Source: Mycobacterium kiyosense
GTDB taxonomy: Bacteria > Actinomycetota > Actinomycetes > Mycobacteriales > Mycobacteriaceae
Length of the DNA stretch: 64,000 bases
Direction: 5' to 3'
Assembly (NCBI GenBank): GCA_021654635.1
Contig: AP025179.1
Location: forward strand, 5,022,001 to 5,086,000
The position numbers and the translations under genes are program-made. This document shows positions 9,376 to 25,655 of the stretch, in pieces. A model generated the notes under the pieces. That model was given only the letters and a program-made list of their open reading frames with translations. It was not told the DNA's origin and made no database searches. The first letter of the stretch is position 1. Every line of letters begins with the position of its first letter.

Positions 9376-10164
9376 TTACCGCGCCTTCCAGACCGGCTCG
9401 CGCTTCTCGGCGAACGCCAGCGGACCCTCCCGCGCGTCCTCGGTGCGGATCAGCGTCTTCATCTCCCGCACCGTGCGGTCCCAGCCAGGCTCGTCGCCGG
9501 TGACGACGCCGTCGTCGACGCCGTAGGCGATGCGCTTGCTGGCCTGCACCGACAGCGGCGCGTTGCAGGTCACCCGGGCCGCCAGGGCCAGCGCCGCGTC
9601 CAGCACCGGGCCCTTGACCACCTCGTTGATCAGGCCCCAGCGGAGAGCGTCGGCCGCCGACAACGGCTCCCCGGTCATCAGCAGTTGCATCGCCACCTTG
9701 CGCGGCAGGTGGTCCATGATCCGGAACACCCCGCCGGCCGCGGCGATCAGACCGCGCTTGACCTCCGGCAGCCCGAACTGAGCCCGCTCGTCGGCCACCA
9801 CCAGGTCACTGGCCAGCGCCAGTTCGGTACCCCCGCCCAGCGCGGTGCCGTTGACGGCGGCGATGGTCGGCTTGTCGATGAAATGGTGGACGTATCCGGC
9901 GAATCCGTACTCCGGGTGATCCGGGTGGTACAGGTTCTCCCGGCGGGCGATGGCCTTGAGGTCCGCACCGGCGCAGAACGACTTGTCGCCCGCGCCGGTG
10001 ATCACCACCGCCCGCACCTCGGGATCGTGCTGCGCCTCCTCGAGCGCGTCGCCGACGGCAATGCTGACCGAGCCGTTGATCGCGTTACGCGCCTCGGGCC
10101 GGTTGATCGTGATGATCATCACATTGCCGCGGCGCTCGGTGAGGGCGCCCGGAGCGTCTGTCAC
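9376..10164 (-). CDS. Enoyl-CoA hydratase/isomerase (crotonase family)
   Basis: A 262-aa crotonase. [13 protein letters not shown] and [15 protein letters not shown] form the two oxyanion-hole segments, with a Glu in the second and another in [10 protein letters not shown] at the position of the acid-base residues. GTG at 10164 overlaps the stop of the upstream thiolase gene (GTGA), so both enzymes are produced together and probably catalyse successive or paired beta-oxidation steps. Corresponds in position to Rv1136 of M. tuberculosis. Confidence 0.85.
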
Positions 10165-11309
10165 AGCAGCTCGAGGATCGTCGCGTTGGCCTGCCCACCA
10201 CCCTCACACATGGTCTGCAGTCCGTAGCGAATTCCGTTGTCCCGCATGTGATACAGCAGCGTGGTCATGATCCGGGCGCCGGAGCCGCCCAGCGGGTGGC
10301 CCAGCGCGATCGCGCCACCGTTGGGGTTGAGCTTCTTCTCGTCGGCGCCGATGTCCTTGAGCCAGGCCAGCGGAACCGGCGCGAACGCCTCGTTCACCTC
10401 GTAGGCGCCGATGTCGCCGATGGACAGGCCGGAGCGCTTGAGCGCCTTCTGGGTTGCCGGGATGGGCGCGGTCAGCATGATCACCGGGTCTGCACCGGCC
10501 AGGCAGGCGGTGTGCACCCGGGCGATCGGCTTCATGCCGAGTTCCTTGGCCTTCTCGGCGGACATGAACAGCAGTGCGGCCGAACCGTCGGAGATTTGCG
10601 AGGAGTTGCCGGCGTGGATCACACCGTCCTCTTTGAAGGCCGGCTTCAGCGAGGCCATCTTCTCCATCGGGGTGCCGCGGCGGATGCCTTCATCCTTGAG
10701 CACGACGTTGCCCTCGGAATCCTTGATGCCGATGATCTGGTCGTCGAAGGCACCGGAATCCTGTGCGGCAGCGGCTTTTTCGTGCGAGTCCAGCGAGAAC
10801 TGGTCGAGGTCGGTGCGGGAGAAGCCCCACTGCTCGGCGATCATCTCGGCCCCGATGCCCTGGTTGGGAATCTGACCGTTGTAGCGGGACAGGAAACCCT
10901 CCGGGTAGGGCCGGCCGCCGTTGGCCAGCGACGCGCCCATCGGCGTGCGCGACATCGACTCGACTCCCCCGGCGACCACGACATCGTAGTGACCGGCCAC
11001 CACGCCTGCTGCGGCGAAGTGCACCGATTGCTGACTCGATCCGCACTGACGGTCGACGGTCACACCGGGCACGGTCTCGGGCCAGCCGGCGGTCAGCAGC
11101 GCGGTACGGCCGATGTCGAGGGCCTGCTCACCGGCCTGCATCACGCAACCCCAGATGACGTCTTCGACCAGGCCGGGGTCGAGGCCCGCCTTGTTGACCA
11201 AACCATTGAGTACCTGCGCGGACAGCTCGGCCGGGTGCACACCCGACAACCCGCCGTTGCGCTTGCCAACCGGGGAACGAACTGCCTCGACGATGACTGC
11301 TTCAGCCAT
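10161..11309 (-). CDS. Acetyl-CoA acyltransferase (thiolase)
   Basis: A 382-aa thiolase. Cys89 in [10 protein letters not shown] is the acyl-accepting nucleophile, His338 in [12 protein letters not shown] activates it and Cys368 in MCEGGGQA is the general base; NEAFAPV supplies the conserved Asn. The start ATG at 11309 has an AAAGGAG ribosome site 8 nt upstream. Cleaves 3-ketoacyl-CoA to acetyl-CoA plus shortened acyl-CoA in fatty acid or sterol chain degradation. First gene of a two-gene operon with the crotonase; corresponds to the Rv1135A region. Confidence 0.9.
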
Positions 11310-11480: not shown

Positions 11481-11999
11481 ATGCCATCGGTCTCCAATCC
11501 GGTTCCCGCTCAGGATCTTTCCGGAATCGTGGGCTGCCGGTTCATCTACACCTACGCCAACGGCTGGCAGTATGAGATGTACGTGAAGAACGAGCACACC
11601 ATCGACTACCGGATTCACACCGGCCACGTCGGGGGACGCTGGGTCAAGGGCCAGCAGGTCGACCTGGTCCAACTCGACGAGGACAGCTTCAAAATCTCGT
11701 GGACCGAACCCACCGGCACCTGCGTGGCCGTCAATGTCATGCCCGGAAAGCGGCGACTGCACGGTGTCATCTTCTTTCCGCAGTGGATTCGCGAACACGG
11801 CGACCGCACCGTGTGCTACCAGAACGAGCATCTCGACGAGATGCACGCCTACCGCGATCGAGGACCGACCTATCCGATCTACGTCGTGCCCGAATTCGCC
11901 TACATCACCCGCTTCGAGCGGGTCGGGACCGACGACGAATCGGTGATCGATTGCGCCCCCGGCGAACTTCCACCCGGCTGGGCCGACCGCACCGACTGA
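11481..11999 (+). CDS. padC: Phenolic acid decarboxylase (PadC/PAD family)
   Basis: A 172-aa protein matching Bacillus subtilis PadC over its whole length with a 12-residue N-terminal extension. Tyr23 and Tyr25 (IYTYANGW), Arg53 (GRWVKG) and Glu76 (SWTEPTGT) are the residues that bind and decarboxylate p-coumarate, ferulate or caffeate to vinylphenols without a cofactor; HTIDYRIH and IFFPQWI complete the lipocalin-like barrel signature. The gene faces the ALDH gene (convergent stops 65 bp apart) and is divergent from the thiolase gene. PAD is usually a soil trait for plant phenolics or a detoxification enzyme and is not widespread in mycobacteria. Confidence 0.9.
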
Positions 12000-12064
12000 A
12001 CACCGTTACGCAGTCAGCGCATCAAGTTGTCCGCCGGGACATCGGTGGCTATCGGCTCACCGGG

Positions 12065-13549
12065 TCAGACGGCGGGGTAACCCACCGTCTTGATCTCGGT
12101 GTACTGGTCGAAGCCGGCGATACCGTTCTGGCGTCCCACACCGCTGTCCTTGTAACCGCCGAACGGCGCGTCGGCGGCGTAGGGGGCGCCGCCGTTGACG
12201 CCCATGAAGCCGGCCTTGATGCGGCGTGCCACCGCCAGCGAACGCTCCAGCGAGCCCGACATCACGTTTCCGGCCAGTCCGTACTTGCTGTCGTTGGCGA
12301 TCCGGATCGCGTCCTCCTCGTCGTCGAAGGGGATGACCGAGAGCACCGGCCCGAAGATCTCCTCCTGGGCGATCGTCATCGAGTTGTCGACATCGGTGAA
12401 AAGCGTTGGGCGGACGAAGAATCCCTTGTCGAAACCAGTCTCGGCATCGGGTCCGCCGACCAGGGCGGTGGCACCTTCCTCCACGCCCTTGCGGATGTAG
12501 CCCATCACGCGGTCGCGCTGCACCTGCGAAATCACCGGGCCGCACAGGGTTCCGGGATCCTGCGGGTCACCACAGGTGACGTTCTCGTAGATGCTCTTGA
12601 GGATGGCCACGCCCTCCTCGTAGCGGGATCGGGGCAGCAGCATCCGGGTGGGGTTGGCGCAGCCCTGCCCGGCGTGCATGCAGGGCGCGATGCCGATGGC
12701 GCAGGCCAATCCGAAATCGGCGTCTTCGAGCACAATGGTGGCCGACTTGCCACCGAGCTCGAGGAAGAGCCGCTTCATGGTCGCCGCGCCCTTTTCCATG
12801 ATCCGCTTGCCGACCACGGTCGAGCCGGTGAAGGAGATCAGGTCGACCTTGGGTGAGAGCGTAAGCTCTTCACCCACAAAGTGATCCGACGCGGTGACGA
12901 CATTGACCACACCGGCGGGGATGTCGGTCTTCTCAGCGATAAGGCGACCCAGCCGGGTCGCGTTGAACGGGGTGTTGGGCGCCGGCTTGAGAACGACGGT
13001 GTTGCCGCTGCCAAGTGCCTGGCCGAGCTTGTTGACGGTGACCTCGAACGGGAAGTTCCATGGCACGATGGCGCCGACCACGCCCACCGGCTCGCGCCAG
13101 ACCTTGATGGTGGTGTTGGCTCCGGTCAGGCTGATCACCCGGTCGCCGAGGTCGGTTTCCCAGGCGTACTCGTCGATCAGCCGGGCCGGGTACTTCAGTC
13201 CGTCGGCCAGCGGTGCGTCCAACTGGGGCCCGAAGGTGATGGCCCGCGGCGAGCCGACTTCGAGGATGAGCTCCTCACGCAGCTCTTCCTTCTCCTCTTC
13301 GATGGCGTCGTGCAGCTGCAGCAGACAGCGCTTACGCAACTCCTTGTTGGTCGACCAGTCGGTCTCGTCGAAGGCCCGCCGGGCGGCGTCGATAGCCCGG
13401 TGCATGTCCTCCTTGGAGGCGTCGGCGACCTCACCGAGGGGCTCCTCGGTGGCCGGGTTGATGTTGGTGAAGGTACCGGCCTGGCCGTCGACGAGCTTGC
13501 CGTCGATCATCATCTTCGGCTCGAAACGGACCTTTACAGTTTCAGACAT
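12065..13549 (-). CDS. NAD(P)-dependent aldehyde dehydrogenase
   Basis: A 494-aa ALDH. PWNFPFEVTVNKLGQALGSG, FTGSTVVGKRIME (nucleotide binding), LELGGKSA (general-base Glu) and GQGCANPTR (nucleophilic Cys) are all in place, with EEIFGPVLSV near the C-terminus. ATG at 13549 is chosen; a GTG nine bases upstream is also possible. Oxidises an aldehyde to the acid. It lies 83 bp downstream of the P450 gene on the same strand, so it may be the last gene of the P450-SDR-AveC-SBP unit, taking an aldehyde from P450/SDR chemistry. Confidence 0.9.
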   Translation of the reverse strand: MSETVKVRFEPKMMIDGKLVDGQAGTFTNINPATEEPLGEVADASKEDMHRAIDAARRAFDETDWSTNKELRKRCLLQLHDAIEEEKEELREELILEVGSPRAITFGPQLDAPLADGLKYPARLIDEYAWETDLGDRVISLTGANTTIKVWREPVGVVGAIVPWNFPFEVTVNKLGQALGSGNTVVLKPAPNTPFNATRLGRLIAEKTDIPAGVVNVVTASDHFVGEELTLSPKVDLISFTGSTVVGKRIMEKGAATMKRLFLELGGKSATIVLEDADFGLACAIGIAPCMHAGQGCANPTRMLLPRSRYEEGVAILKSIYENVTCGDPQDPGTLCGPVISQVQRDRVMGYIRKGVEEGATALVGGPDAETGFDKGFFVRPTLFTDVDNSMTIAQEEIFGPVLSVIPFDDEEDAIRIANDSKYGLAGNVMSGSLERSLAVARRIKAGFMGVNGGAPYAADAPFGGYKDSGVGRQNGIAGFDQYTEIKTVGYPAV

Positions 13550-13641
13550 ACCTGTCACTCTCTTCTGACTCGTGCGAAGGGCTATGGAGAGCCTTACCGG
13601 AAACTAGCCGATTGGCAAGTTTCCCGCTGCTGCGGGGTCCG

Positions 13642-14859
13642 CTACCGGGGGTCGAACAGCACCGGAACCGAGGTAGGAGACCGGAAGACCTGCCCGCGGA
13701 TGTGCGGGTCGTCGCCGTCGGGATCCAGGCGCAGGTTGGGCAGCCGATCGAGCAGCAGGTTGATCGCGGTGCGCATTTCCAGTCGCGCCAGGTGCATGCC
13801 CAGACAGACGTGCACGCCGTGGCCCCAGCCCAGATGCGCCCTGGCCGGCCGGTGGATGTCGAACTTGTCCGGATCGGGATAGCGGTCCTCCTGGCGGTTG
13901 GCCGCGCCCAGCATCGGCATCACCGTCGCCCCCGCCGGGATCGCCACTCCGCCGAGTTCGGTGTCCCGGGTCGCCACCCGGGTGATCGTCAGCAGCGGCG
14001 ATTCCCACCGCACACCCTCTTCGATGGCCTGGGGCAGCAGCGACCGGTCTGCCCGGATCGCCTCCAATTGCGCGGGGGCGCAGAGCAGCGCCAGCAGCAG
14101 GCTGCCCAGCGAGCGATACGTCGTCTCCACTCCGGCGGGCAACAGCAGTCGCAGGAACGAGAAGATCTCCTCGTCGGCGAGCTTCTCGCCGTCGATCTCC
14201 GCCGCCCCCAGAGCGCTGATCAGATCGTCCTTGGGCTCGGCGCGGCGCGCCTCGAGGATGGGCGCGAAGTACTCACACAGCGCGGCCGCGGCCGCGAGGC
14301 CGCGCTCGGGGTTCATCAGCCAACTCAGCAGCGAGATCGACCAGCGCTGGAACTGCGGGTAGTCCTGCTCGGGTAGGCCCAGCAAGCCCGCGATGATCTG
14401 GCTCGGGTAGTCGAAGGTGAACTCCTGCACCAGATCTGCCCGGCCGTTGGGCGCGAACTTATCGATCAGGCTGTTGGCCACCCGGGCGACCAACTCGTCT
14501 TGATAGCGCGCTAACGACTTCTGCGAGAACGCCTTTGACACAAGTGAGCGGAGCCGGCCGTGCACGGGCTCGTCCATGCCGAGCATCACCCGTTCGCCCA
14601 GTACCGGCCCGAACGCCGCGATGACGGCCGCCGAGGAGAAGGTTTCGTTGTCGCGCAACATCTGCTGGATGTCCTCGTGGCGGTACACGATGAACATCGG
14701 CAAGGATTCCTCGTGCGGAAGCGCGCCTGAGGTTTCCAAACGTTGCACCGGCTGCTCGCGGCGCAGTCGCGCCAACTCGGTGTAGGGGTCGCGGACGTCG
14801 CCGGAGATCGCGTCGTCGAAGGCGCCGAAGTCTTCCAGGTCGTCGAAAAGCTGTTCCAC
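13642..14859 (-). CDS. Cytochrome P450
   Basis: A 405-aa soluble bacterial P450. The I-helix oxygen-activation motif is AGVETT, the K-helix ExxR is EEGVRW, and the heme loop reads LGWGHGVHVCLG with the axial Cys. The first residue of the heme motif, normally Phe, is Trp here. GTG at 14859 follows an AGAAGGAG ribosome site, 11 bp after the SDR stop, so it belongs to the SBP-AveC-SDR-P450 operon. No ferredoxin or reductase gene is adjacent. Substrate unknown; the surrounding acyl-CoA dehydrogenases suggest a lipid or terpenoid acid. Confidence 0.9.
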   Translation of the reverse strand: MEQLFDDLEDFGAFDDAISGDVRDPYTELARLRREQPVQRLETSGALPHEESLPMFIVYRHEDIQQMLRDNETFSSAAVIAAFGPVLGERVMLGMDEPVHGRLRSLVSKAFSQKSLARYQDELVARVANSLIDKFAPNGRADLVQEFTFDYPSQIIAGLLGLPEQDYPQFQRWSISLLSWLMNPERGLAAAAALCEYFAPILEARRAEPKDDLISALGAAEIDGEKLADEEIFSFLRLLLPAGVETTYRSLGSLLLALLCAPAQLEAIRADRSLLPQAIEEGVRWESPLLTITRVATRDTELGGVAIPAGATVMPMLGAANRQEDRYPDPDKFDIHRPARAHLGWGHGVHVCLGMHLARLEMRTAINLLLDRLPNLRLDPDGDDPHIRGQVFRSPTSVPVLFDPR

Positions 14860-14870
14860 TGCTGCTCCTT

Positions 14871-15842
14871 CTAGTCCTTTTTCGACCGCGCGGCCAGCCG
14901 CTGCAGAATCGGCTGTGGGATGACCCGGGCGGCGAACACCATCGCTTTTTGAGCTGTCGTCAGGGGCCACGCCCCGTCCCGCATCGACCCCTGCCGGGGA
15001 ATGCCCAGTACCACCCGGGACACCTGATGCATTCCCGATGCCGGCAGAATCCTGTTGGCGGCCAGCAACATCGACGCGTCCGGCCCCACCCCGCGGCGGC
15101 GGAACGGCTTGGTGTCGGCGAGAGCTTTGAGCAGGCCGTCGGTGAATCGTTCGGGCGGCCTGGCGAATCGGATCGCGAACCGGCCGCGGGTGTTCATGGT
15201 GGTGTGCAGCCGCGCGTAGGCGCCTGTGAAGTCGCGCGCGTCGATGGTGCCGGCGTCGGTGATGATCTCGGTGTCGTAGGTGCCGGCCACCAGCACGGTG
15301 ACGCCGAGGCCGAACGGCGCGATCTCCACGGCCATCGACTCGCCCCACCGTTCCAGGGCGCCCTTGGCCGCCGAATACGGAGCGGTGCCGGGTTGCCCCC
15401 GCACGCCGGCCGCACTGGACACCAGCACGATGCGTCCCCGGCCGGCCGCCCGCATCGTCGGCAACAGCGCCTGGGTGAGCGCGACAGGACCCAGCACGCT
15501 GGTGGTGAACATGTTCTGCCACAGCGCCATATCGCTCTCCTCCACCACCCCGGCGGCGGAGATTCCGGCGTTGTGCACCAGCGCGTAGGGTGCGCCCACC
15601 GACTCTTCGATCGCTTTGGCCGCCGCGGTGATCGAGGCGGGGTCGGTGAGGTCGAGCTGGACACCGATCAGTCTGTCGTCGTCCTCGGTGGCTCCGGTGG
15701 CCTGTCGCAGCAGTGGCAGCCCGCGGTCGGGTGTGCGCATGGCGGCGATCACTCGCCATCCTTCGCGGTACAAGCGCACCGCCGAGGCGAACCCCAGCCC
15801 GCGTGACGCGCCGGTGATGACGACGGTGCGCGGCTCAGCCAT
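14871..15842 (-). CDS. SDR family oxidoreductase
   Basis: A 323-aa short-chain dehydrogenase: TGASRGLG near residue 11, NAG in LVHNAGIS, catalytic Ser in VLVSSAAG and YSAAK. The C-terminal 80 residues extend beyond the classical fold, with a basic end. ATG at 15842 overlaps the last 8 nt of the AveC-family gene. Arg in AAMRTPDRG after the second strand suggests NADP(H). Likely oxidises an alcohol or reduces a ketone on the same substrate as the P450 and AveC proteins. Confidence 0.85.
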   Translation of the reverse strand: MAEPRTVVITGASRGLGFASAVRLYREGWRVIAAMRTPDRGLPLLRQATGATEDDDRLIGVQLDLTDPASITAAAKAIEESVGAPYALVHNAGISAAGVVEESDMALWQNMFTTSVLGPVALTQALLPTMRAAGRGRIVLVSSAAGVRGQPGTAPYSAAKGALERWGESMAVEIAPFGLGVTVLVAGTYDTEIITDAGTIDARDFTGAYARLHTTMNTRGRFAIRFARPPERFTDGLLKALADTKPFRRRGVGPDASMLLAANRILPASGMHQVSRVVLGIPRQGSMRDGAWPLTTAQKAMVFAARVIPQPILQRLAARSKKD

Positions 15843-16971
15843 TGTTGCCCGGGGCCGCACAGGCGCCTTGGCCGGGCGGCGGCGGTTCGACGTGCGGACG
15901 CCCGTTCGGCTCTCCGCTCGCCCAGGTCGACCAGATACCCACCGAGTACGGGCCCTGCGCGCCGGCCTTCTCGTAAAACCCTTGCGGGTCATACACTTTG
16001 GCCTCAGGATACGGCCACGGACAGGCGACCGAAGTTGCCGCATGGCTGACCTTGATGACCCAGAACCAGGCGCCGTAGGCGAAATAGGACACGTTGATGA
16101 TCGCGAACATCACCAGGAAGGTGGCCAGTACCGGCCTGCTCGGGAGGATCTTGGCCTTGGCGGCGAGCTTCTCTGCGACCGACTTTCCGGTGTCGTCGCG
16201 GTAGCAGAGTATCGCGGCGGGCACCATCACGAACGTCACCGAGAGCGACTCCCAGATCAGCGGGAACTGGAACGTCGTACCGGTGAACACCGAGCCCCAC
16301 GGGATCACCTGCGAGTAGATGTACATGCCCCAGTGGATCAGGGTGTTTTCCAGAAAGGCATCGAAGACGAACCCGATCCCGCATGCCAGCATCCCCAGAC
16401 ACACCAGCGGGTGCCGCGAGACGAATGCCTCGGGTCCGTGCTTTGCCTGCAGTTTGCGCAGGATCCACACCGCCGGGAAGTAGGGGCCGAAGTAGAACAT
16501 CACGTAGCCGAAGACCACGAACGGTTCGACCGTGGGCGACAAGGACACCAGGGGCCACGATTCCGGCCAGTGCACGAGGTCGGGGTTGTAGACCGCGAAC
16601 GGCGACCAGTTCATGATCGGGTCCTGCCACACGATCAGCGTGGTGCAAAGGAACATCAGCATCACCGGGCTGCCGGGATTGCGTCGCCAGCCCCTGACGA
16701 AGACGATCAACAGGAGGATGAGCGCCACCACTGTCGCGGCATCGAGGAAGGTGATGTAGTCCAGCCCGAACGAGAATTTCACCGGGCGGGGCCGACCCTG
16801 CACATTCGGGTTCGCGACGCGCTGGTCAAGGGCCACACGGCAATTCGCGATGAAGAACAGCACGAACGCGGCCAGCGCGGCACCGGCGATCCAACCGCCC
16901 CAGCCGCGCTTCCTGGTCCGCCCGGGGTCCTCGGGCCGCTCGGCGGCGACCAGCGATTGGTCGGTGCTCAT
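15835..16971 (-). CDS. AveC-family (spirocyclase-like) membrane protein
   Basis: A 378-aa polytopic protein with hydrophobic segments at about 26-44, 76-94, 104-118, 146-170, 191-210, 243-263 and 288-308, and a Pro/Gly-rich tail. Segments such as IVWQDPIMNWSPFAVYN and GFVFDAFLENTLIHWGMY, rich in Trp, Asp and Asn within or beside membrane helices, resemble Streptomyces AveC and its relatives, which act in spiroketal chemistry of avermectin. Mycobacterial relatives have no known substrate. It starts 7 bp after the SBP stop and overlaps the SDR gene, so it is firmly within the operon. Inference: a membrane-bound enzyme or product binder for the P450/SDR pathway. Confidence 0.75.
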   Translation of the reverse strand: MSTDQSLVAAERPEDPGRTRKRGWGGWIAGAALAAFVLFFIANCRVALDQRVANPNVQGRPRPVKFSFGLDYITFLDAATVVALILLLIVFVRGWRRNPGSPVMLMFLCTTLIVWQDPIMNWSPFAVYNPDLVHWPESWPLVSLSPTVEPFVVFGYVMFYFGPYFPAVWILRKLQAKHGPEAFVSRHPLVCLGMLACGIGFVFDAFLENTLIHWGMYIYSQVIPWGSVFTGTTFQFPLIWESLSVTFVMVPAAILCYRDDTGKSVAEKLAAKAKILPSRPVLATFLVMFAIINVSYFAYGAWFWVIKVSHAATSVACPWPYPEAKVYDPQGFYEKAGAQGPYSVGIWSTWASGEPNGRPHVEPPPPGQGACAAPGNNG

Positions 16972-16978
16972 CGGTGCC

Positions 16979-18091
16979 TCACTCTCCGAAGCGGTCGACC
17001 AGGTGCGAGTTGACCCCGTCGGCGTCCAGCGTCCGCGCCACCAGGTACCCGGCCCCCATCCAGGCGCGGCGCGTCCATTTCCCGAACGACACCCGGGTGC
17101 CGGGCGCGCCCGATGCGGCGGGCAGCATCTTGACCCGCTCCAGCGCTTCCTTGACCCCGCGCGGACTGAGCGGATGCGCGTCGGTGAACGCCCGCACCAG
17201 TGTGGCGGCGACGTCGCGGTTCACCACGGTCACGCAGAATTCCGGGCGACTGCCGTTGTACCTCTCCGCGTAGGCGTCGAGGAAGTCCTGCCCGATCTTG
17301 TTCGCCTCGTCGTACTGGTCGACGCCGATCCAGCCCAGGAACGCGTTCCACATGATCGGGTTGACCCAGGCGTTCTGCCACGCGGTGGTGGTGAAGCGGG
17401 GCGGGTCCCAGTCAACGGCCTGCAGCGCCGGGTTGATGAACACGATCCCGAAGCCGAATCCCAGGTGCACGATCGCCTCGGCCTTCGCCTCGTGCAAGGT
17501 CCGCACGGCGTCGTTGATGTCCTGGGCGGTCTGCGCGACCGTGACTTCCGCCACGATCCGAATGCCCTTGCGCCGGCAGGCACTTCGCAGATTCTTCAGG
17601 TAGCTCTCCCCGATGAGGCTCTGCTCGACCAGGACACCGATCTGGGTGAGGTCGCGTTTGGCGATGAGGTCGGCGAGAAAGATCGGCTCGTCGGTCATCG
17701 ACCCCTGCGGGAGTGCGAAGGTCCACTCGCCCAGCCAGTCGTCGGTGCCGGTCACGCTGATCGCCGGAACTTTGAAGCGTTCCTCGATCGCCTCCCGCAA
17801 CGGCACACAGTTATCGGTGATGTTGGGACCGAAGACCACCAGGCAGCCCTCGTCGACGAGCTCCGCGTACGCATCGATCACAGCTTTGACCGAACCTTTG
17901 GGCAGACCCTCGACCTCGCGATAGATCATCTGCACGGGACGGTCCATCAGACCTTGGGCGAGTGCCTCTTCGAAGATCAGGTCGAACGTCTGGGTGAAGG
18001 AGGCGAACAGCTCCTCGGGGAAGCCGGGCGGCAGCTTGAAATCCATCAGGTAGCCGACTTTGATCGGCTCCGCCTGGCTTTCGTAGGACAT
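16979..18091 (-). CDS. Periplasmic-binding-protein-like (ABC type 1, amide/urea type) without signal peptide
   Basis: A 370-aa type 1 periplasmic binding fold related to branched-chain amino acid, amide and urea receptors (VGYLMDFKLP at the N-terminus, LVVFGPNITDNC, VPAISVTGTDDW, GFGIVFINPALQ). It has no signal peptide, lipobox or TAT motif: the N-terminus is charged (MSYESQAEPIK) and begins directly in the first strand. No permease or ATPase of an ABC importer is nearby. It is therefore probably a cytosolic ligand binder. ATG at 18091 follows GGGGAGG. First gene of the SBP-AveC-SDR-P450 unit, with a shared operator 45 bp upstream. Confidence 0.8.
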   Translation of the reverse strand: MSYESQAEPIKVGYLMDFKLPPGFPEELFASFTQTFDLIFEEALAQGLMDRPVQMIYREVEGLPKGSVKAVIDAYAELVDEGCLVVFGPNITDNCVPLREAIEERFKVPAISVTGTDDWLGEWTFALPQGSMTDEPIFLADLIAKRDLTQIGVLVEQSLIGESYLKNLRSACRRKGIRIVAEVTVAQTAQDINDAVRTLHEAKAEAIVHLGFGFGIVFINPALQAVDWDPPRFTTTAWQNAWVNPIMWNAFLGWIGVDQYDEANKIGQDFLDAYAERYNGSRPEFCVTVVNRDVAATLVRAFTDAHPLSPRGVKEALERVKMLPAASGAPGTRVSFGKWTRRAWMGAGYLVARTLDADGVNSHLVDRFGE

Positions 18092-18135
18092 CGACCTCCC
18101 CAATCTGCCCGGCGCCGGCACCCGCGCGGGACGAA

Positions 18136-18149
18136 ACCTAATATTTGTT
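18136..18149 (-). promoter_or_regulatory. Shared cluster operator, copy 1 (before SBP operon)
   Basis: Reads AACAAATATTAGGT on the minus strand, 45 bp upstream of the SBP start, one mismatch from the consensus AACAnAnATTTGGT derived from five copies in this cluster. Probable site of the two-domain TetR encoded at 24393-25655 (inference). Confidence 0.5.
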
Positions 18150-18177
18150 CAGACCCTAGCCGTGGGGCTATGCAGCG

Positions 18178-19038
18178 TCAATTGCGTGATCCGTCGACCC
18201 CGTCCGTCGTGCCGAAATAGACCTCGACCATTTCGGCCAGCGCCCTGCCCACCGCGACATCGTCGGTGAGCGGCCCGGCGATCGCCGCCAGTGCCGCCTC
18301 CGGCCTGGTCAGCCCCTCGGCGATCAGCCGTCCCGCCGCGATCAGCACGCGAGTCGAGGCGACCTCGCGCAACCCGCCGGTTTCCAGGCGCCGGATGGCC
18401 TGCCCGAAGCGCACCAGCTCGGCCGCGGTGTCGCCGTCGACGCCGGCCTCGTGCGCGACGATCTGCTCCTCGACATCGGCTGCGGGGAAATCGAATTCGA
18501 TGGCGACCATGCGCTGACGGGTGGAGTCCTTGAGGTCCTTCAGGACGCTCTGATAACCGGGGTTGTAGGACACCACCAGGCCGAATCCGGGCGCCGCGTC
18601 CAGGGTCACGCCGAGGCGTTCGATCGGCAGGTGCCGCCGGTAGTCGGCGAGCGGGTGCAATACCACCGTCGTGTCCTGCCGCGCTTCCACCACCTCGTCC
18701 AGGTAACAGATGGCACCCTCGCGCACGGCGCGTGTCAAGGGGCCGTCCACCCACACCGTTTCGTCGCCACGCAGCAGGTACCGGCCGACCAGGTCGGCGG
18801 TGGTGAGATCGTCGTGGCAGGCGACGATGATCAGCGGCCGGCCGAGGTCGTGGGCCATCGCCTCGACGAATCGCGTCTTGCCGCAGCCCGTCGGGCCCTT
18901 GAGGACCAAGGCCAGTCCCTGCCGATACGCGGCTTTGAACACGGCCTCTTCCCGGCCAACCGCTTGATAGTAGGGACGCGCCGGCGCGACTTCGGATCGA
19001 GCACCGTTGCGGTAGGCGAGCCCGGACTCGTCGGCCAT
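18178..19038 (-). CDS. MoxR/CbbQ-type AAA ATPase
   Basis: A 286-aa AAA+ ATPase. GPTGCGKT is Walker A, ICYLDEVVEA Walker B, SYNPGYQ the sensor region and STRQRM carries the arginine contributing to the neighbouring site; the sequence follows the NorQ/CbbQ branch. These ATPases work with a VWA-domain partner to remodel or insert metal into an enzyme. The partner is the VWA gene upstream (19344-21103), separated by 305 bp filled with repeats. ATG at 19038 follows an AGGAAG site. A copy of the shared operator lies 37 bp upstream. Confidence 0.85.
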   Translation of the reverse strand: MADESGLAYRNGARSEVAPARPYYQAVGREEAVFKAAYRQGLALVLKGPTGCGKTRFVEAMAHDLGRPLIIVACHDDLTTADLVGRYLLRGDETVWVDGPLTRAVREGAICYLDEVVEARQDTTVVLHPLADYRRHLPIERLGVTLDAAPGFGLVVSYNPGYQSVLKDLKDSTRQRMVAIEFDFPAADVEEQIVAHEAGVDGDTAAELVRFGQAIRRLETGGLREVASTRVLIAAGRLIAEGLTRPEAALAAIAGPLTDDVAVGRALAEMVEVYFGTTDGVDGSRN

Positions 19039-19074
19039 TGACTTCCTTTCCGTCCAATCCGGCAGCTTAGCCGG

Positions 19075-19088
19075 AACAGATGTTTGTT
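19075..19088 (+). promoter_or_regulatory. Shared cluster operator, copy 2 (before MoxR gene)
   Basis: AACAGATGTTTGTT, 37 bp upstream of the MoxR start, differs from the consensus at a few positions. Together with the flanks (GGAACA and TGTTTC) it forms an imperfect inverted repeat. Confidence 0.45.
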
Positions 19089-19170
19089 TCAAGAGCTCGG
19101 TGGATTGTGTCGCCGCGCGGTTCCGGCGTGCCAATTATATTCTGGGCCAAAGCATTCCCTGCGCCACTCA

Positions 19171-19384
19171 CGCGCCGAACCTTCTCGCCGAGCGTCACGC
19201 CAGCGCAACCGTGGGCGCCGAGCGTCACGCCAGCGAGACGCCCGACGCGGCGGGAGACGACGCGGCCAACCTCCGCGCGCCGGACTTCGCGCGCCGAACC
19301 TTCTCGCCTAGCGTCACGCCAGCGCAACCGTGGGCGCCGAGCGTCACGCCAGCGTGACGCCCGACGCGGCGGGAGACGACGCGG
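19171..19384. repeat. 119-bp-period direct repeat built from CG-rich palindromic units
   Basis: A block of about 95 bp starting at 19171 recurs at 19290 with only a few changes. Each copy contains two GAGCGTCACGCCAGCG units (one unit has TAGCGTC), and the second copy runs into GACGCGGCGGGA-type units that encode the Ala/Pro-rich end of the VWA protein. The unit is half of a palindrome also found after metE at 29097. This fills the gap between MoxR and VWA genes; no gene is visible in it. Confidence 0.7.
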
Positions 19385-21103
19385 CGGGAAACGACGCGGC
19401 GGGAGACGGCGCGGCGGGAAACGCGCGGCGGGCCTCCGCCGAACGCAACGCGGACCTGAAGAGCGGTCCAACCACGCCCGCGAGCTGGTCTGGACGCCCG
19501 AGGGTCGCATGCGCGGTGCTGCCGAACACGCGGCGCAGCGAGTGCACGTCGGTGCCCGCGCCGATCGTCAGGCACACGCAACCGGTCCCCCGGCGTCGCG
19601 CCTCCAACAATGCCCGGCGAGCATCGGCGGCGCCGTAGGCCCGCTCGTAGCCATGGTCGTATGCCAGTCCGTCCGACAGCACCACCAGCAGCCGCCGCGC
19701 CGTCCCCCCCGCGTGCCTGCAGAACCGTCGAGCCGTGCCGGATCGCCGCACCCAGCCGTGAGTACGCTCCGGGTTCCAGGCTGTTGAGCCGCCGCATCAC
19801 CCGGGTGTCGAGATGGTCATCGAACCGCTTGACCGGCACCATGCTCACCGCACCGCGGCCCTGCGAGTAGTACGCGTACATGGCCACCCGGTCGCCCAGA
19901 TCATGCAGCGCCACAGCAAGATTAGCGATCGCCGCCCGCTGTTGCTCGTGCACCGTGCGCCCCACCGTTCCGGGCTCGGCCGCCGACCCGGACACGTCGA
20001 GCAGCAGCAGCACCGAAAGGTCACGGCGGCGGCGCAGGCTGTCCAGATAGACCGACTCGTCGGGCGCCGACCCCGGCCCGCACCTCGACGCGCGCCTCGA
20101 CCGCCGCGTCGATGTCGATGTCGTCGCCCTGCGACTGCCGGGCCCGGCGGTGCAGACCCATGCCGAGTCGGGCCAGCGGTCGCCGGACGCTGATGGCGTC
20201 GTCGATCGCCTGCGTCGCAGCCGCTTTGATCTTGGGCTCCACCTCACGCACGGTGCACCAGTCGGCCCGGTAGCGCCTGCGCGTAGCGTCCCACTCCGGA
20301 TACCGTGCGCCGTCGGCCTGCGCGTCGTGGATGCGATCCTCCTCGCTAACGGTCGCAGCCCGCGACGACACCGCCCGCGCGCCGCGCTTGCCGGAGTTGG
20401 TGCGGTGGGTGGGGGTGTCAGCACCCGGTGGCCCGCCGGTCCCGTGGGCGGCCCCCCTTCTGGAGGACAACATCTTCTTGAGCCACTTGCCGATGAAGCC
20501 GGCCCCACCGACCGGGCTGGTGAACATGTCCGGATCGTCGGAGTCGTCGAACTCGCCGTCGCCCAGCCCTTCGAGTTCGGCCGGGTCCTGGGACTTGCGC
20601 GGCACGTGCGGTGCGCTCGCCTGAGCCGGCTGCTTGGCGGTTTCAGCGCAGGCGGCCAGTACTTTCGAGGCGCGGATCACGCCGTACTCCGGCGCCGGAT
20701 CGTCGATGGCCGTTCGCCCCTCGGCGAGACGCAGTGAGGCGGCCGGCGAATCGCTGTCACCGGGCACCTCACGAGCGGCCAACGGCGCCAACATCTTCGG
20801 CAACAAGGCGGCGTTGGCACGCAACGCGCGACTGGCCTCGATCGCCAGATACCGCTTAGCCAGACGCGGGTGGCGGACGAGCGCCCGGACCACCTCGGGG
20901 TCCAGGCTGCCCGCCGCGATCAACGACGCCTGCACCGCCACGGCGCGGAGGGCCTCGAGTTTCGCGCCGGCGGCGAGATAGATGCTCTGACCGTCGGTCC
21001 ACGAATGCTCACCCGGTGGCAGTCGGGCCACGGCTACGGCCCGACCGGCGAGAGCGGACGCGAACATGGCCAGAGCCTGGTCGTCGGGAGCGTCGTCACC
21101 CAC
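19344..21103 (-). pseudogene. VWA-domain protein (NorD/CbbO-like), two frameshifts
   Basis: Partner of the MoxR ATPase. Residues from GTG 21103 through a variable acidic linker (GDGEFDDSDDPDMF) lie in one frame; the VWA domain with MIDAS motif LLLLDVSGSAAEP continues in a second frame from SAPDESVYLDSL; the third frame carries LLVVLSDGLAYDHGYERA to the end. Breaks coincide with a C4 run (20071-20074) and a C7 run (19704-19710) on the plus strand, each curable by removing one base, so sequencing error is plausible. The C-terminus is a degenerate FPAAS/SPAAS repeat encoded by the local DNA repeat. Expected to bind the MoxR ring and a client enzyme. Confidence 0.7.
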
Positions 21104-21126
21104 GCGAACCCCCAGGTATCTCGTTG

Positions 21127-21140
21127 ACCAAATATCTGTT
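21127..21140 (-). promoter_or_regulatory. Shared cluster operator, copy 3 (before VWA gene)
   Basis: AACAGATATTTGGT on the minus strand, 24 bp upstream of the VWA start. It is part of a 21-bp sequence (21129-21149) repeated exactly at 21191-21211. Confidence 0.55.
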
Positions 21141-21188
21141 CCAACGTAGAGTCCGGTTCGACCGCCGTCAATCGACCTCCGCGCATTG

Positions 21189-21202
21189 AGCAAATATCTG
21201 TT
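21189..21202 (-). promoter_or_regulatory. Shared cluster operator, copy 4 (before acyl-CoA dehydrogenase operon)
   Basis: AACAGATATTTGCT on the minus strand, 54 bp upstream of the acyl-CoA dehydrogenase GTG start. The two copies in this divergent gap are 62 bp apart, centre to centre, one for each direction. Confidence 0.55.
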
Positions 21203-21255
21203 CCAACGTAGGGTCGGCTTGGCGGCAGACTATCCGGTGAGGTCGAATAGGAAAC

Positions 21256-22404
21256 GTGGACTTCTCATATCCAGCGGAGGTGGAACGCTTCCGCGATGAG
21301 CTGCGTACCTGGCTGTCGGCGAATCTGACCGACGAATTGCGCGCCGCCCGGCGGCCGTCGGCCCGCGACGACGCCACCTTCGGCAAGCTGCGCGCGTGGG
21401 ACGCCACCGCTGCTGATGCCGGCTGGGGCGCGGTCTCCTGGCCCCGCGAGTACGGCGGCCGGGGCGCCACGGTACTCGAACAGCTCGTCTTCACCGAGGA
21501 AACCACCCGGGCGCGAGCGCCGTTGCCGCTCAACGTCATCGGGATGAACAACATCGCGCCGGCCATCATGCAATACGGTACCGAGCAGCAGAAGACCACC
21601 TTGCTGCCCCGGATGATGCGCGCGGACGACATTTGGTGCCAAGGCATGTCGGAACCGGAAGCCGGATCCGATCTGGCGGCGCTGCGGACCAAGGCGGTCC
21701 GTGACGGCGACGACTTCGTGGTGTCCGGTCAGAAGATCTGGACCTCGCTGGGCCACAAGGCGAATTGGTGCCAACTGTATGTGCGCACCGACCCGGATGC
21801 CCCGAAGCACCGGGGGATCTCCTGCTTGATCGTGGACATGAGCTTGCCCGGAATCCAAGCCCGTCCGCTGGTGACGCTGAACGGCGACTCGGACTTCGCC
21901 GAGGTCTTCTTCCACGACGTGCGGGTGCCCGCCGATGCGCTGCTCGGTCCGCTCAACGCCGGCTGGCAGGTCGCCACCACCACGTTGAGCCACGAGCGCG
22001 CCGGCGCAGCCCGGTTGTACGCGGAATTGCATGTGCGACTTGACGAATTGGTGGCCGACTTCGCAGCGGCGGACTCCTCGGGCAGCGTGCTCGACGACCC
22101 GGTGGTGTTGTGCCGGCTCGGTGAGCTCGGCGTCCGGATCAAGTATCTGGAAGTGCTGTGCCAGCGTTCGATCTCGGCCACACTGCACGGTGGCGACCCG
22201 CTCGGGTCGGCCAGCCTGGCCAAGACGGTGTGGGGCGAGATCGGCCAGGACCTGTCCGAGCTCGCATTCGACGTGCTGGGCACCCGCGGCGGCCACTGGG
22301 CCGACTACCGGCTGTCGTCGCGCTCACTGACCATCGCCGGCGGTACCAGTCAGATCAACAAGAACATCACCGCACAGCGAGTCCTGGGGCTGCCGCGCAA
22401 ATGA
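21256..22404 (+). CDS. Acyl-CoA dehydrogenase, subunit 1
   Basis: A 382-aa FadE-type flavoenzyme (GTG start). MSEPEAGSDLAALRTKA is the acyl/FAD-binding signature, SGQKIWTS follows, and AGGTSQINKNITAQRVLGLPR is the C-terminal FAD-contact loop, in which the Glu of classical enzymes is Gly. That loss, and the second dehydrogenase gene overlapping by ATGA, are typical of the actinobacterial alpha2-beta2 heteromeric dehydrogenases that act on bulky acyl-CoA such as steroid side-chain esters. Predicted reaction: alpha,beta-desaturation of an acyl-CoA with transfer to electron-transferring flavoprotein. Confidence 0.9.
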   Translation: MDFSYPAEVERFRDELRTWLSANLTDELRAARRPSARDDATFGKLRAWDATAADAGWGAVSWPREYGGRGATVLEQLVFTEETTRARAPLPLNVIGMNNIAPAIMQYGTEQQKTTLLPRMMRADDIWCQGMSEPEAGSDLAALRTKAVRDGDDFVVSGQKIWTSLGHKANWCQLYVRTDPDAPKHRGISCLIVDMSLPGIQARPLVTLNGDSDFAEVFFHDVRVPADALLGPLNAGWQVATTTLSHERAGAARLYAELHVRLDELVADFAAADSSGSVLDDPVVLCRLGELGVRIKYLEVLCQRSISATLHGGDPLGSASLAKTVWGEIGQDLSELAFDVLGTRGGHWADYRLSSRSLTIAGGTSQINKNITAQRVLGLPRK

Positions 22405-23492
22405 ACCTCGAACTGAGCGACGAACAGGTCGCGCTGCGCGACACGGTGCGCCGCTTTCTTGCGGAGCGAGCATCGATTTCGGAGCATGTACGGCCCCTAC
22501 TCGACGACCCGACCGGCATCACGGAGCCGGTGTGGCGCGGTCTTGCCGAGCTCGGGGCGACGGGCCTGCTCGTGCCCGAGGAACACGGCGGTGCCGGTAC
22601 GACGATGGTCGAAGCGGGCGTCGTCGCCGAAGAACTCGGCGCCGCCCTGCACCCGGGCCCATGGCTGTCGACGGCCGTCGCGGCCACCCGCCTACTAACC
22701 CGACTCGGCGGTCAACCCGCCTCGCGGATCCTCGCGCAGATCGCCGACGGCACCGCCATCGTGACGGTGGCGGGACTGGGCGAGCAGCCGGCCGCGGTCT
22801 CGGTCCGAGACGGGGGTTTCTTCGTCAGTTCGCCCGCACTGGTCGCGCCCGACGCGGCGGCCGCGGAGTTGCTGCTGATATCCGCAGTAGGCCCCGACGG
22901 CACCGGTGTATTCGCGGTCAAGACCACCGGGCCCGGCGTCTCGGTGATCCCCGAGCGCGGAATCGACAAGACCCGCAAGCAGTTTGGCGTCGAGTTGGCC
23001 GATGCCGAGGCGCAGTACCTGGGCGCATTGACGCCCGACGACGTCGCCGCGGTGATCGATGACCTGCTCATCGCGACCGCCGCCGACGCGCTCGGGGCCG
23101 CGCGCGCCGTGCTGGACATGGCCGTCGCATACGCAAAGACCCGAACGCAATTCGGAGCGCCCATCGGCTCGTTCCAGGCTGTGCAGCACCTGTGCGTGGA
23201 CATGTACGAGACGGTGGAGCTGGCCCGCAGCGGCGTGGTCCACGCGTTGTGGGCTTCCGACTCGTGTCCCGCCGAGCGGCACCTGGCAGCGTTGCGGGCC
23301 AAGGCATTCGCCGGCCGGCTTGCCACCGTCGGCGACACCGCGATCCAGGTGTTCGGCGGCATCGGATACACCTGGGAACACGATGCGCACCTCTACCTCA
23401 AGCGCTTGCTGAGCTGGAGTGCGCTGCTGGGCGGCCCGGATCACTATCTCGTCGAAGTCGGCGCGCAGCTCGCCGCGGGAGGTCGACGATGA
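22401..23492 (+). CDS. Acyl-CoA dehydrogenase, subunit 2
   Basis: A 363-aa acyl-CoA dehydrogenase fold protein lacking the SEPEAGSDL signature in its middle domain ([15 protein letters not shown] instead) but with a well-kept C-terminal helical domain ([34 protein letters not shown]). This asymmetry is the pattern of the second chain in heteromeric FadE pairs. ATG overlaps the stop of subunit 1, so equimolar synthesis is expected. Also overlaps the following SDR start by ATGA. Confidence 0.9.
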
Positions 23493-24206
23493 TCGATTTC
23501 ACCGGCCAGGTCGCGATCGTCACCGGCGCCGGACGCGGCCTCGGGCGCCGCTACGCACTGGAATTGGCCCGTCGGGGGGCCACCGTCGTGGTCAGCGACC
23601 TCGGCGGAACCATGAACGGCGACGGCTCGGACACCTCGACAACTTCAGCCGCCTCGACGCCGTGGTGAGCAACGCCGGGATCTTCAACAGCATCCCGTTC
23701 GACGAACTGTCCCCCGACGACTGGCGGCGCATGCTCACCGTGCACCTCGACGGCGGGTTCTATCTCAGTCAGCCGGCGTACCGGCTGATGAAAGCGCAGA
23801 AGTACGGCGGGTTCGTGTTCGTCTCGTCCTCCGGCGGCATGTTCGGGCAGCCGCTGGAAGCCCATTACGCCGCCGCGAAGGCCGGCTTGGTGGGCCTGTC
23901 CAATGTCATCGCCATCGAGGGGGCCGAGCACGGCATCCTGTCCAATACCGTGCTGCCATTCGGCTTTTCGCGCATGGTGACCGAAACCGTGGGAGATCAG
24001 AAAGCCCTTGACGGCCTGGGCCAGGGTTGGTTCGCCGAAAAGGACAGCGAACCGACCGCCGACGACGTGCTGGCTTGCGCCGGCCGATTCGCCCGGGTCT
24101 TCGTCGTCATCTGGCCGAAGTTTCGGCGACCGAGCCGTTCACCGTGCCGGGATCGATCTTCGAGGAAGTATTCGGTGTTGCCGCACAACTCGGCGTCACC
24201 ACCTGA
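23489..24206 (+). pseudogene. SDR, broken by internal deletion and frameshift
   Basis: Third gene of the dehydrogenase operon. The N-terminus is intact ([34 protein letters not shown]) but at about 23635 the frame jumps and roughly 35-40 residues are missing before [13 protein letters not shown]; the Tyr/Lys pair follows in HYAAAKAG. Near 24100 the frame changes again to end with EPFTVPGSIFEEVFGV and TGA at 24206. The missing block cannot be a homopolymer error, so this copy is probably a true pseudogene. Homologues are 3-hydroxyacyl-CoA dehydrogenases of the MFE-2 type; loss would leave the pathway needing another dehydrogenase. Confidence 0.75.
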
Positions 24207-24312
24207 CCGCGGCGCGCACGACGCTGGCCCGGCCGCCCATCTACGATGATGTGTGCAGCCGTGCGCACGCCCCGTAAGCAGCGCGTTCGCCGAGGGCGGT
24301 CTGATAGCCTCT

Positions 24313-24326
24313 AACAAAGATTTGGT
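24313..24326 (+). promoter_or_regulatory. Shared cluster operator, copy 5 (before TetR gene)
   Basis: AACAAAGATTTGGT lies 6 bp before an AGGAGG ribosome site and 67 bp before the TetR gene, as expected for autoregulation. Matches the consensus AACAnAnATTTGGT at every defined position. Confidence 0.55.
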
Positions 24327-24348
24327 TCGGCAGGAGGACGGGATTCGC

Positions 24349-24396
24349 ATGGTGCAAACGCTGCGCCCCTCCCCGGCGACGACCCGCCGGCCATGA
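24349..24396 (+). CDS. 15-residue leader ORF coupled to the TetR gene
   Basis: ATG at 24349, 11 nt after AGGAGG, opens a 15-codon ORF whose TGA overlaps the TetR start as ATGA. Either a short leader peptide that couples translation, or the real N-terminus of the TetR protein separated by one extra base (a C4 run lies inside). The TetR ATG itself has no good ribosome site, which supports one of these two readings. Confidence 0.35.
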   Translation: MVQTLRPSPATTRRP

Positions 24397-25655
24397 CCGA
24401 CAGCGCAATCGAAAGCGGCACCCGCCGCACCGAGATCCTCCAGACCGCCGCCGCACTGATCGCCACCTCGGGCCTGCGCACCTCGCTGCAGGAAATCGCC
24501 GATGCGGCAGGCATTCTGCCGGGCAGCCTCTATCACCACTTCGAATCCAAGGAAGCCATTCTGGTCGAGCTGATCCGCCGCTACCAGGCCGACTTGGAAC
24601 ACATCGGGCAAAGCGCGCAGGCGAAGCTGGACGAGCCGGACTCACGACCGCCCGCCGAGAAGATCGTTGAATTGGGGCGCGCGATCGCCAACTGTGCGGT
24701 GCGGCATCGCGCCGCACTGCAGATGTCGTTCTACGAGGGGCCCAGCGCCGATCCCGAGCTGATGCGGCTGACGCAGCAGCGCCCCGTCGCTATGCAGGAG
24801 GCGATGCTGCAGACGCTGCGCGCCGCCCGGTGGAGCGGCTACATCAAGGCCGATGTCGACCTGCCCATCCTGGCCGACCGCATCTGCCAGACCATGCTGC
24901 AGGTCGGGCTCGACGTCATGCGGGCCAACTCGTCGGCCGATCAGGTGGCCGCACTGCTCTGCCGAATCATGTTGCAGGGTCTGGCATCCCGTCCTCCCAC
25001 GGATCGGGTGCTGGATCGGTCCAAGGCGTTTGCCGCGGCCAGTGCGGTCATCGAGTCCTGGGCCGACGACAGCGAGGCCGACCCCAGCGACAAGGCGGCA
25101 CACCTGCGCGCCGTCGCACGGACGGAGTTCGGCCGCAAGGGTTATGAGGTCACCACGATCCGCGACATCGCCGCCGCGGCCGGTCTGGGCACTGGGACGG
25201 TCTACCGAGTGATCGGCTCCAAAGACGAACTGCTGGCCTCGATCATGCGTTCATTCGGCCAGAAAGTCGAAGCGGGTTGGGTCGACGTGCTGCGCTCGAA
25301 TGCGACGCCGATCGAGAAGCTCGACGCCTTGAGCTGGGTCAACGTCAATGCGCTGGACCAGTTTTCGGACGAATTCCGCATCCAGCTGGCCTGGATGCGG
25401 CAGTCGCCGCCGCGGGACACGGTAAACCCGGGCTGGTCGTACACCACCCGGTTGCGTCAGATGAAATCGTTGCTGTCCGAAGGCATTCGGTCGGAAGAGA
25501 TACGTGCCGACACCGGTTCCACCACGATGCTGGCCCGCTGCGTCATCGGGATGCAGTGGATCCCGGAGAACATTCTGCGCGAGGTGGGCACCCGCACGTC
25601 GTTGTTGCTGGCGCGCGACACCGTCGTGCGCGGTGTGGCAGTACGCGGTAAATAG
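24393..25655 (+). CDS. TetR regulator with two DNA-binding domains
   Basis: A 420-aa protein made of two TetR units. The first helix-turn-helix is at residues 32-51 (LQEIADAAGILPGSLYHHF) and the second at about 254-274 (IRDIAAAAGLGTGTVYRVIG); each is followed by an all-helical ligand domain of about 150 residues. Ordinary TetR proteins are about 200 aa and dimerise; this one may act as a covalent pseudo-dimer. Downstream of the acyl-CoA dehydrogenase operon and preceded by a copy of the motif found at all cluster promoters, so it is the likely cluster regulator (inference). The ligand may be an acyl-CoA intermediate. Confidence 0.85.
   Translation: MTDSAIESGTRRTEILQTAAALIATSGLRTSLQEIADAAGILPGSLYHHFESKEAILVELIRRYQADLEHIGQSAQAKLDEPDSRPPAEKIVELGRAIANCAVRHRAALQMSFYEGPSADPELMRLTQQRPVAMQEAMLQTLRAARWSGYIKADVDLPILADRICQTMLQVGLDVMRANSSADQVAALLCRIMLQGLASRPPTDRVLDRSKAFAAASAVIESWADDSEADPSDKAAHLRAVARTEFGRKGYEVTTIRDIAAAAGLGTGTVYRVIGSKDELLASIMRSFGQKVEAGWVDVLRSNATPIEKLDALSWVNVNALDQFSDEFRIQLAWMRQSPPRDTVNPGWSYTTRLRQMKSLLSEGIRSEEIRADTGSTTMLARCVIGMQWIPENILREVGTRTSLLLARDTVVRGVAVRGK

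Follow-up and report, generated by a model that had tools for sequence, protein, structure and literature searches.

The gene cluster at positions 11481..25655 of a 64,000-nt stretch (the window) of Mycobacterium kiyosense AP025179.1 probably comprises several units under one shared operator, for which a tandem TetR regulator is the predicted reader, and its pair of a NorQ-type AAA+ ATPase and a NorD-type VWA protein probably activates the AveC-like membrane protein encoded in the same cluster. The cluster is a variant of NorQ/NorD-type systems whose client probably belongs to a new class, combined with a tandem TetR regulon. To our knowledge, few clients of MoxR/VWA machines have been identified. 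An earlier note on this DNA had proposed that a MoxR/VWA pair matures one of the cluster enzymes; this proposal gained support and can be narrowed, by gene linkage, to a NorQ/NorD-type pair that probably acts on AveC.

Linkage of NorQ and NorD with AveC

The ATPase, named MoxR in the earlier note, belongs to the NorQ/CbbQ type, as it carries AAA_5 (PF07728, 3.4e-33) and the CbbQ/NirQ/NorQ C-terminal domain (PF08406, 2.1e-26). Its top solved relatives were NorQ (9qhd, 313 bits), a "CbbQ/NirQ/NorQ domain protein" (5c3c, 308 bits), and a "CbbQ protein" (6l1q, 284 bits). The assignment of the VWA partner as NorD-like came from its VWA domain together with its length and position. The window copy of this gene lies in two pieces in different frames, its relatives carry longer open frames, and a pseudogene is not distinguishable from a sequencing error in this assembly. 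In an alignment of 30 readings longer than 480 residues, obtained from 31 two-piece loci (L052 was left out), the DxSxS, S, and D positions were invariant, one of the 30 rows being the second frame of the window, whose reading breaks off ahead of the D position. The AveC-like protein scored 218.8 bits against PF17198 (curated cut-off, 26.6 bits) and is a member of this family. Short GC-rich direct repeats were seen by eye at 19190-19440, in the gap that separates the start of NorQ from the end of NorD.

NorQ genes were classed by their identity to the window NorQ as close (at least 74%), 67% class (64-69%), 56% class, and 48% class. The 67% class was represented by 34 loci, 20 of which were fetched first and 14 of which came from a later order-wide NorQ search, free of AveC-query bias. 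In each of these loci (20/20 and 14/14; 34/34 in total), AveC immediately preceded NorQ on the same strand, and relatives of the cluster's periplasmic-binding-protein family member (SBP) and of its second acyl-CoA dehydrogenase (FadEb) were each found in 0/34, and a cytochrome P450 in 2/34. Among the close NorQ genes listed, AveC was present within 9 kb in 121/124. The M. kiyosense genome itself (6.35 Mb) encodes 17 AveC-like and four NorQ-type genes; one NorQ, of the 67% class, stands in a run of AveC, NorQ, and NorD (L077), and another in the order SDR-AveC-NorD-NorQ (L079), SDR denoting a short-chain dehydrogenase. The fourth NorQ-NorD pair of this genome (L078, 11301-13644) is of the 48% class.

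A scan of named genomes for AveC, in which 80 of 159 relatives were kept and the query was biased because it was drawn mostly from NorQ neighborhoods, gave NorQ in 76/80 and NorD in 75/80 loci, with an AveC-NorQ gap of 10-83 bases in the 76 loci having both. These loci span Mycobacterium, Nocardia, Aldersonia, Actinomadura, and gamma- and deltaproteobacterial metagenome-assembled genomes (MAGs), and a related TetR gene was present within the stretch in 72/80. In L059/L125, from one genome, AveC was reduced to a remnant, and NorQ and NorD were not found there, while SBP, the short-chain dehydrogenase SDR1, and ALDH (aldehyde dehydrogenase) were still present. Judging from this linkage, AveC is likely the client of the NorQ/NorD pair. 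Within the collection of papers searched, none joined AveC with NorQ, and the sole paper on AveC and MoxR was unrelated by its title. A second set in a Pseudomonadales MAG (L172, 13640-19171) holds an SDR (52%), a window-type AveC (57%), NorD, NorQ, and another AveC-like stretch. Precomputed domains indicated SDR-AveC fusions in the proteins P0016, P0024, and P0092, and the AveC relatives listed include one from Mycolicibacterium vaccae (P0080).

The joint presence of the two genes within the genus has a block-like pattern: among 198 genomes, 116 carried a close NorQ, all of them with AveC, one carried AveC alone, and 81 carried neither. This co-occurrence could reflect the inheritance of one block, and the cluster might then be an ordinary accessory catabolic block in which the link of NorQ/NorD with AveC is hitchhiking. 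We consider this quite improbable, because an AveC of a different subfamily keeps its place directly before NorQ and NorD even where the gene order is another and the host is a different genus or a MAG.

The client of NorQ/NorD might alternatively be the P450, the two FadE enzymes, or the SBP-like protein, with AveC as a mere neighbor. All three are encoded within the operator-bearing cluster, and a P450-like gene was present in 11/19 stretches around NorQ-NorD pairs of the 48% class (~5 kb fetched per flank, except for one flank of L237 with 1.6 kb). In L105, L111, L113, and L114, a FadE-like gene is convergent with and right beside NorD, and the 67%-class loci carried a distant FadEa-like gene in 12/34 and an ALDH-like gene in 18/34. 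Nevertheless, it is AveC that immediately precedes NorQ in every 67%-class locus, where relatives of SBP and FadEb are missing and those of P450 are rare, and such a client other than AveC seems unlikely to us.

The AveC model (pLDDT, the predicted local distance difference test, 81.7; pTM, the predicted template modeling score, 0.82) was fairly confident and mostly helical, and no convincing likeness to a solved structure was found for it. Y155, E207, and D259 were invariant over 70 AveC-like proteins, and the nearly invariant positions include D116, P117, N120, E148, D203, Q234, P236, and D258 (numbered from the first row of alignment A3, which begins at residue 2 of the protein); the conserved residue types are carboxylates, N, Q, Y, W, P, and R. 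Judging from the predicted helices and the positive-inside rule, the set D116-N120-E148-D203-E207-Q234 would face outward and D258-D259 would be cytosolic. With its many carboxylates, the outward set could form an active site or bind a metal, and D258-D259 could be a docking patch for NorD.

Several observations weigh against the activation of AveC by this pair. No NorQ lies within ~3.5 kb of 13 of the 17 AveC-like genes of the genome, and the AveC family as a whole therefore needs no linked NorQ. Three of the 124 close NorQ genes (G093, G143:C16, and G133:C4) had no AveC within 9 kb, and four of the 80 AveC loci (L153, L191, L203, and L208) had no NorQ. AveC was found in 0/19 of the fetched stretches around 48%-class pairs, a contrast that came from the order-wide NorQ search, nor was it found at L223, a 56%-class NorQ locus of another family, which indicates that the machine has other clients. 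The FadEa-like and ALDH-like genes of the 67%-class loci mean that AveC is not the sole recurrent neighbor. None of the residues that are invariant or nearly so in the 70 AveC-like proteins is a histidine, so that a NorB-like iron site is not indicated. In addition, the system may be inactive in this assembly because NorD is frame-broken.

The two known systems with ATPases of this family were considered and rejected. The genome search located COX1-family genes at 1.574 and 1.789 Mb, all of them more than 90 kb away from each of the four NorQ genes, and not close by as a linked COX1-superfamily catalytic subunit would have been in a maturation operon for cytochrome c-dependent nitric oxide reductase (cNOR). 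A CbbQ/CbbO Rubisco activase was likewise rejected, as no match to the Rubisco large subunit (PF00016) was found in the genome at E <= 1e-5. Therefore, neither known client explains the pair. The cluster nevertheless resembles NorQ/NorD acting on nitric oxide reductase in its CbbQ_C-type AAA+ ATPase, in a VWA partner with the DxSxS, S, and D residues (in the relatives), and in a polytopic membrane protein as the client, which in the cluster is assigned by linkage; unlike in that system, the linked membrane protein is AveC-like. It resembles the CbbQ/CbbO Rubisco activase in that the window ATPase is from the same family, as the 308- and 284-bit matches indicate, and differs from the setting of that activase in a genome lacking a match to the Rubisco large subunit.

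NorQ and NorD might only remodel AveC, as CbbQ/CbbO do with Rubisco, AveC being metal-free. This possibility, which is compatible with the activation of AveC by the pair, is a serious one that we place somewhat short of even. Both the lack of a conserved histidine in AveC and the fact that CbbQ is also a close homolog of the window ATPase favor it. On the other hand, metal insertion is ascribed to NorQD (PMC13036017; PMC9976466), which was the top match in bits, and the conserved carboxylates of AveC could hold a metal.

A probable shared operator and a tandem TetR regulator

The earlier note had reported a 14-bp motif at five sites in front of cluster genes. All five were found at these coordinates, with 0-2 mismatches each (Table 1). 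The motif is a near-palindrome, and its five sites occupy four intergenic regions, because those at 21127 and 21189 both lie between the divergent VWA and FadE genes. The number of exact AACAnAnATTTGGT matches expected in the shuffled window was 0.00, and at up to three mismatches the window gave 25 strand-counted matches vs. a control mean of 8.77. The statement that the motif occurs nowhere else in the window holds at a stricter cut-off but fails at two mismatches, where a site at 57215 equals that at 19075. Nor was the motif common at random in the 6.35 Mb genome, where the only exact matches were the two cluster copies and 4/5 matches with up to one mismatch were inside the cluster; allowing up to two mismatches gave 80 strand-counted matches vs. 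41 for the reversed pattern. The three best genome-wide matches to a 16-base version were all within the cluster, and at up to three mismatches this version gave 61 strand-counted matches vs. 19 for the reversed control, showing related sequences elsewhere in the genome. Related TTAGGT-type sites were seen at 5046 and 8099 of L087 and at 4735 of L093, in the same genome, near luciferase-like, DapB-like, P450, aminotransferase, TetR, and amidohydrolase genes.

A tandem TetR search among 198 genomes of the same genus gave a match at E <= 1e-40 in 121/198, the own genome included. Forty tandem TetR loci, one per genome from 40 other genomes, were picked by hand and oriented with 25 kb of the window. 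These 41 loci (776 kb in total) were scanned with AACANATATTTGKT at up to two mismatches, and an operator was counted as "before" a gene when it lay within 300 bases upstream of the start; the resulting counts are non-independent because the loci are related. The scan gave 147 sites vs. an average of 2.85 for 20 permuted patterns, so that the motif is not absent at orthologous clusters, and it is the same intergenic places that retain the site across the relatives. The operator was found before SBP in 32/33, NorD in 31/31, NorQ in 21/31, FadEa in 16/21, and TetR in 26/41 loci; the highest permuted-pattern control for any gene was 1.40 loci (SBP), all others being at most 0.10. It was hardly found before internal genes (P450, 0/32; SDR1, 0/32; AveC, 0/30; FadEb, 0/21; ALDH, 1/36; SDR2, 1/20 starts), and SBP-AveC-SDR1-P450-ALDH therefore looks like one unit. 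P450, SDR1, AveC, SBP, NorQ, and NorD were all together in 30/40 relatives (counted by eye), and the FadE pair was more variable than the other members, as 21/41 loci passed the FadEa filter. The sites missed before NorQ in 10/31 and before TetR in 15/41 loci count against one operator for all units. Nevertheless, the genome-wide scarcity of the motif and the sites kept in relatives strongly support the earlier proposal of a shared operator and a conserved, putatively regulated cluster. An extra operator-like site stands right after the TetR gene in 19/40 relatives (L031, L032, L037, L040-L043, L045-L047, L049-L053, L055, L056, L059, and L061; counted by eye), and none is there in the window.

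The regulator contains two TetR DNA-binding domains in one chain. Over 41 TetR sequences, 68% and 66% of the positions in the two heads were at least 95% identical, compared with 36% and 32% outside the heads, and both helix-turn-helix (HTH) heads thus appear to be under constraint. When 115 distinct sites were oriented on the AACA half, one side read GAACA(G/A)AT and the opposite side (G/A)ACC(A/T)AAT. In the AACA half-site, base two was A in 106/115 sites and the mirrored base was C in 98/115, an asymmetry favored by the search pattern and by the orientation, and the orthologous site classes are only five, of which four are unequal and one (before NorQ) is often equal. Mce3R (Rv1963c) is described as a single chain with two TetR units that recognizes an asymmetric operator, its sites being 25 bp and without a palindrome (PMC11667970). 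By analogy, the tandem TetR may be a single-chain repressor on an asymmetric operator, working like Mce3R, although the cluster operator differs from the Mce3R sites in being a near-palindrome of 14-16 bp with unequal halves. Mce3R orthology was rejected, as the match was limited to residues 11-94 (43.2 bits), and 2ibd and KstR2 scored higher.

A different regulator might read the operator, with the tandem TetR merely linked to it, as the TetR loci lacking a detected site before TetR and the related motif near another TetR gene in L087 would allow. We think this rather unlikely, since the operator is present in most loci picked for the tandem TetR and both HTH heads of this protein are conserved. 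TetR regulators often control their neighboring genes, which also speaks for the tandem TetR as the predicted reader of the operator.

Proposed mechanism and its meaning

We propose that a single TetR chain would use its two dissimilar heads to contact one unequal half-site each and repress the SBP-AveC-SDR1-P450-ALDH, NorQ, NorD, FadE, and TetR units, and that it would be released upon binding a pathway acyl-CoA or the substrate. The NorQ hexamer would drive NorD, and the metal ion-dependent adhesion site (MIDAS) of NorD would attach to acidic residues on the cytosolic side of AveC, with D258-D259 as the candidate patch. A comparable binding of Paracoccus NorD, through its MIDAS motif, to an acidic surface of the membrane enzyme has been proposed (PMC9976466). 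NorQ and NorD would remodel AveC or load a cofactor, perhaps a metal, in the way suggested for NorQD and nitric oxide reductase. A bulky hydrophobic substrate would be passed on by the SBP-like protein; P450, SDR1, and ALDH would oxidize a side chain of it to the acid level, and its beta-oxidation would begin with the FadE pair.

We put forward more tentatively, and lean against it for now, a wider reading in which the AveC-like proteins form a new class of metalloenzymes in the membrane, each loaded or activated by a NorQ/NorD machine of its own. The maturation of nitric oxide reductase would then be one branch of a larger family of systems that mature membrane enzymes, in this cluster with a single-chain repressor on an asymmetric operator. 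The AveC-NorQ-NorD trio in several actinobacterial genera and proteobacterial MAGs would name a directly testable client class. The trio would further hint that some AveC-like proteins, of which there are 17 in this genome, require activation or an overlooked cofactor, a point of possible relevance to research on the avermectin spirocyclase. This spirocyclase/dehydratase, AveC, shares the Pfam family PF17198 with the cluster protein and is described as acting on dihydroxy ketone polyketide intermediates (PMC13303154), and the words "metal," "transmembrane," "cofactor," and "homolog" each have 0 occurrences in the main text of that paper. Unlike avermectin AveC, the cluster protein has a catabolic-type setting. 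The conserved operator together with the tandem TetR is a handle for finding the inducer, and hence the substrate.

Cluster enzymes, substrate, and neighboring genes

The features of the cluster are listed in Table 1. The best solved relative of the P450 was CYP125MRCA (235 bits), and its end coordinate is approximate because the start codon is ambiguous. ALDH was nearest to TIGR04284 (Rv0768-type) in NCBIfam, at 658.7 bits and under the cut-off of 775. The SBP translation has no evident N-terminal signal stretch. FadEa had 4x28_A as its best solved relative (213.9 bits), and FadEb was nearest to IpdE2 in NCBIfam (169.1 bits, under the cut-off of 450). The entry 4x28, which reads "Acyl-CoA dehydrogenase" in the database, is presumably ChsE4. 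With FadEa nearest to this structure and two FadE genes adjacent to each other, the pair may resemble the ChsE4-type heteromeric acyl-CoA dehydrogenases. Parts of the SDR2 region (23492-24249) are out of frame in this assembly, in which a pseudogene and a sequencing error are not distinguishable.

Table 1. Genes and operator sites of the cluster (positions in the window)
Feature	Position	Strand	Remarks
Aldehyde dehydrogenase (ALDH)	12065..13558	-	End of likely SBP operon; Pfam Aldedh 2.9e-145; syntenic in relatives
Cytochrome P450	13642..14868 (end approximate)	-	Pfam p450; syntenic in relatives
SDR1, short-chain dehydrogenase	14871..15842	-	Pfam adh_short 2.7e-42
AveC-like polytopic membrane protein	15835..16971	-	PF17198 8.8e-65
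SBP, periplasmic-binding-protein family	16979..18091	-	First gene of likely operon; Peripla_BP_6 4.5e-22; start 18091 inferred
Operator before SBP	18136..18149	-	1 mismatch
NorQ/CbbQ-type AAA+ ATPase	18178..19038	-	AAA_5 and CbbQ_C
Operator before NorQ	19075..19088	+	2 mismatches
NorD-type VWA gene	19690..21103 (boundaries approximate)	-	Frame broken; VWA_2 in second piece
Operator between NorD and FadEa	21127..21140	-	Exact match to AACAnAnATTTGGT
Second operator between NorD and FadEa	21189..21202	-	1 mismatch
FadEa, acyl-CoA dehydrogenase	21256..22404	+	Pfam
FadEb, acyl-CoA dehydrogenase partner	22401..23492	+	Pfam match on longer frame
SDR2	23620..24249	+	Only middle part in this frame; adh_short matched from profile position 73
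Operator before tandem TetR	24313..24326	+	Exact match to AACAnAnATTTGGT
Tandem TetR regulator, 420 aa	24393..25655	+	Two TetR_N domains

Of these enzymes, P450, SDR1, and ALDH would convert a methyl group or side chain to an acid. Beta-oxidation would be initiated by the FadE pair, possibly helped by an enoyl-CoA hydratase and a thiolase, whose genes are at 9376-11309, without the operator. The substrate would be bulky and hydrophobic. Two weak hints point to a sterol type: the nearness of FadEa to 4x28, and a ketosteroid dehydrogenase-like gene near AveC-NorQ-NorD in 3/80 loci, all of them gammaproteobacterial MAGs. The terpenoid, polyketide, or sterol-like substrate suggested in the earlier note thus remains a candidate class only, and an unproven one.

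Two further genes are mentioned for their location. A phenolic acid decarboxylase gene (11481-11999, + strand, PF05870 7.4e-77) is inside the interval delimited by the earlier note and convergent with the ALDH gene, and the window scan found no operator site near it at up to three mismatches. A large DUF3556 membrane protein (PF12077, 4e-285) is encoded near the cluster at 29187-30905 on the - strand.

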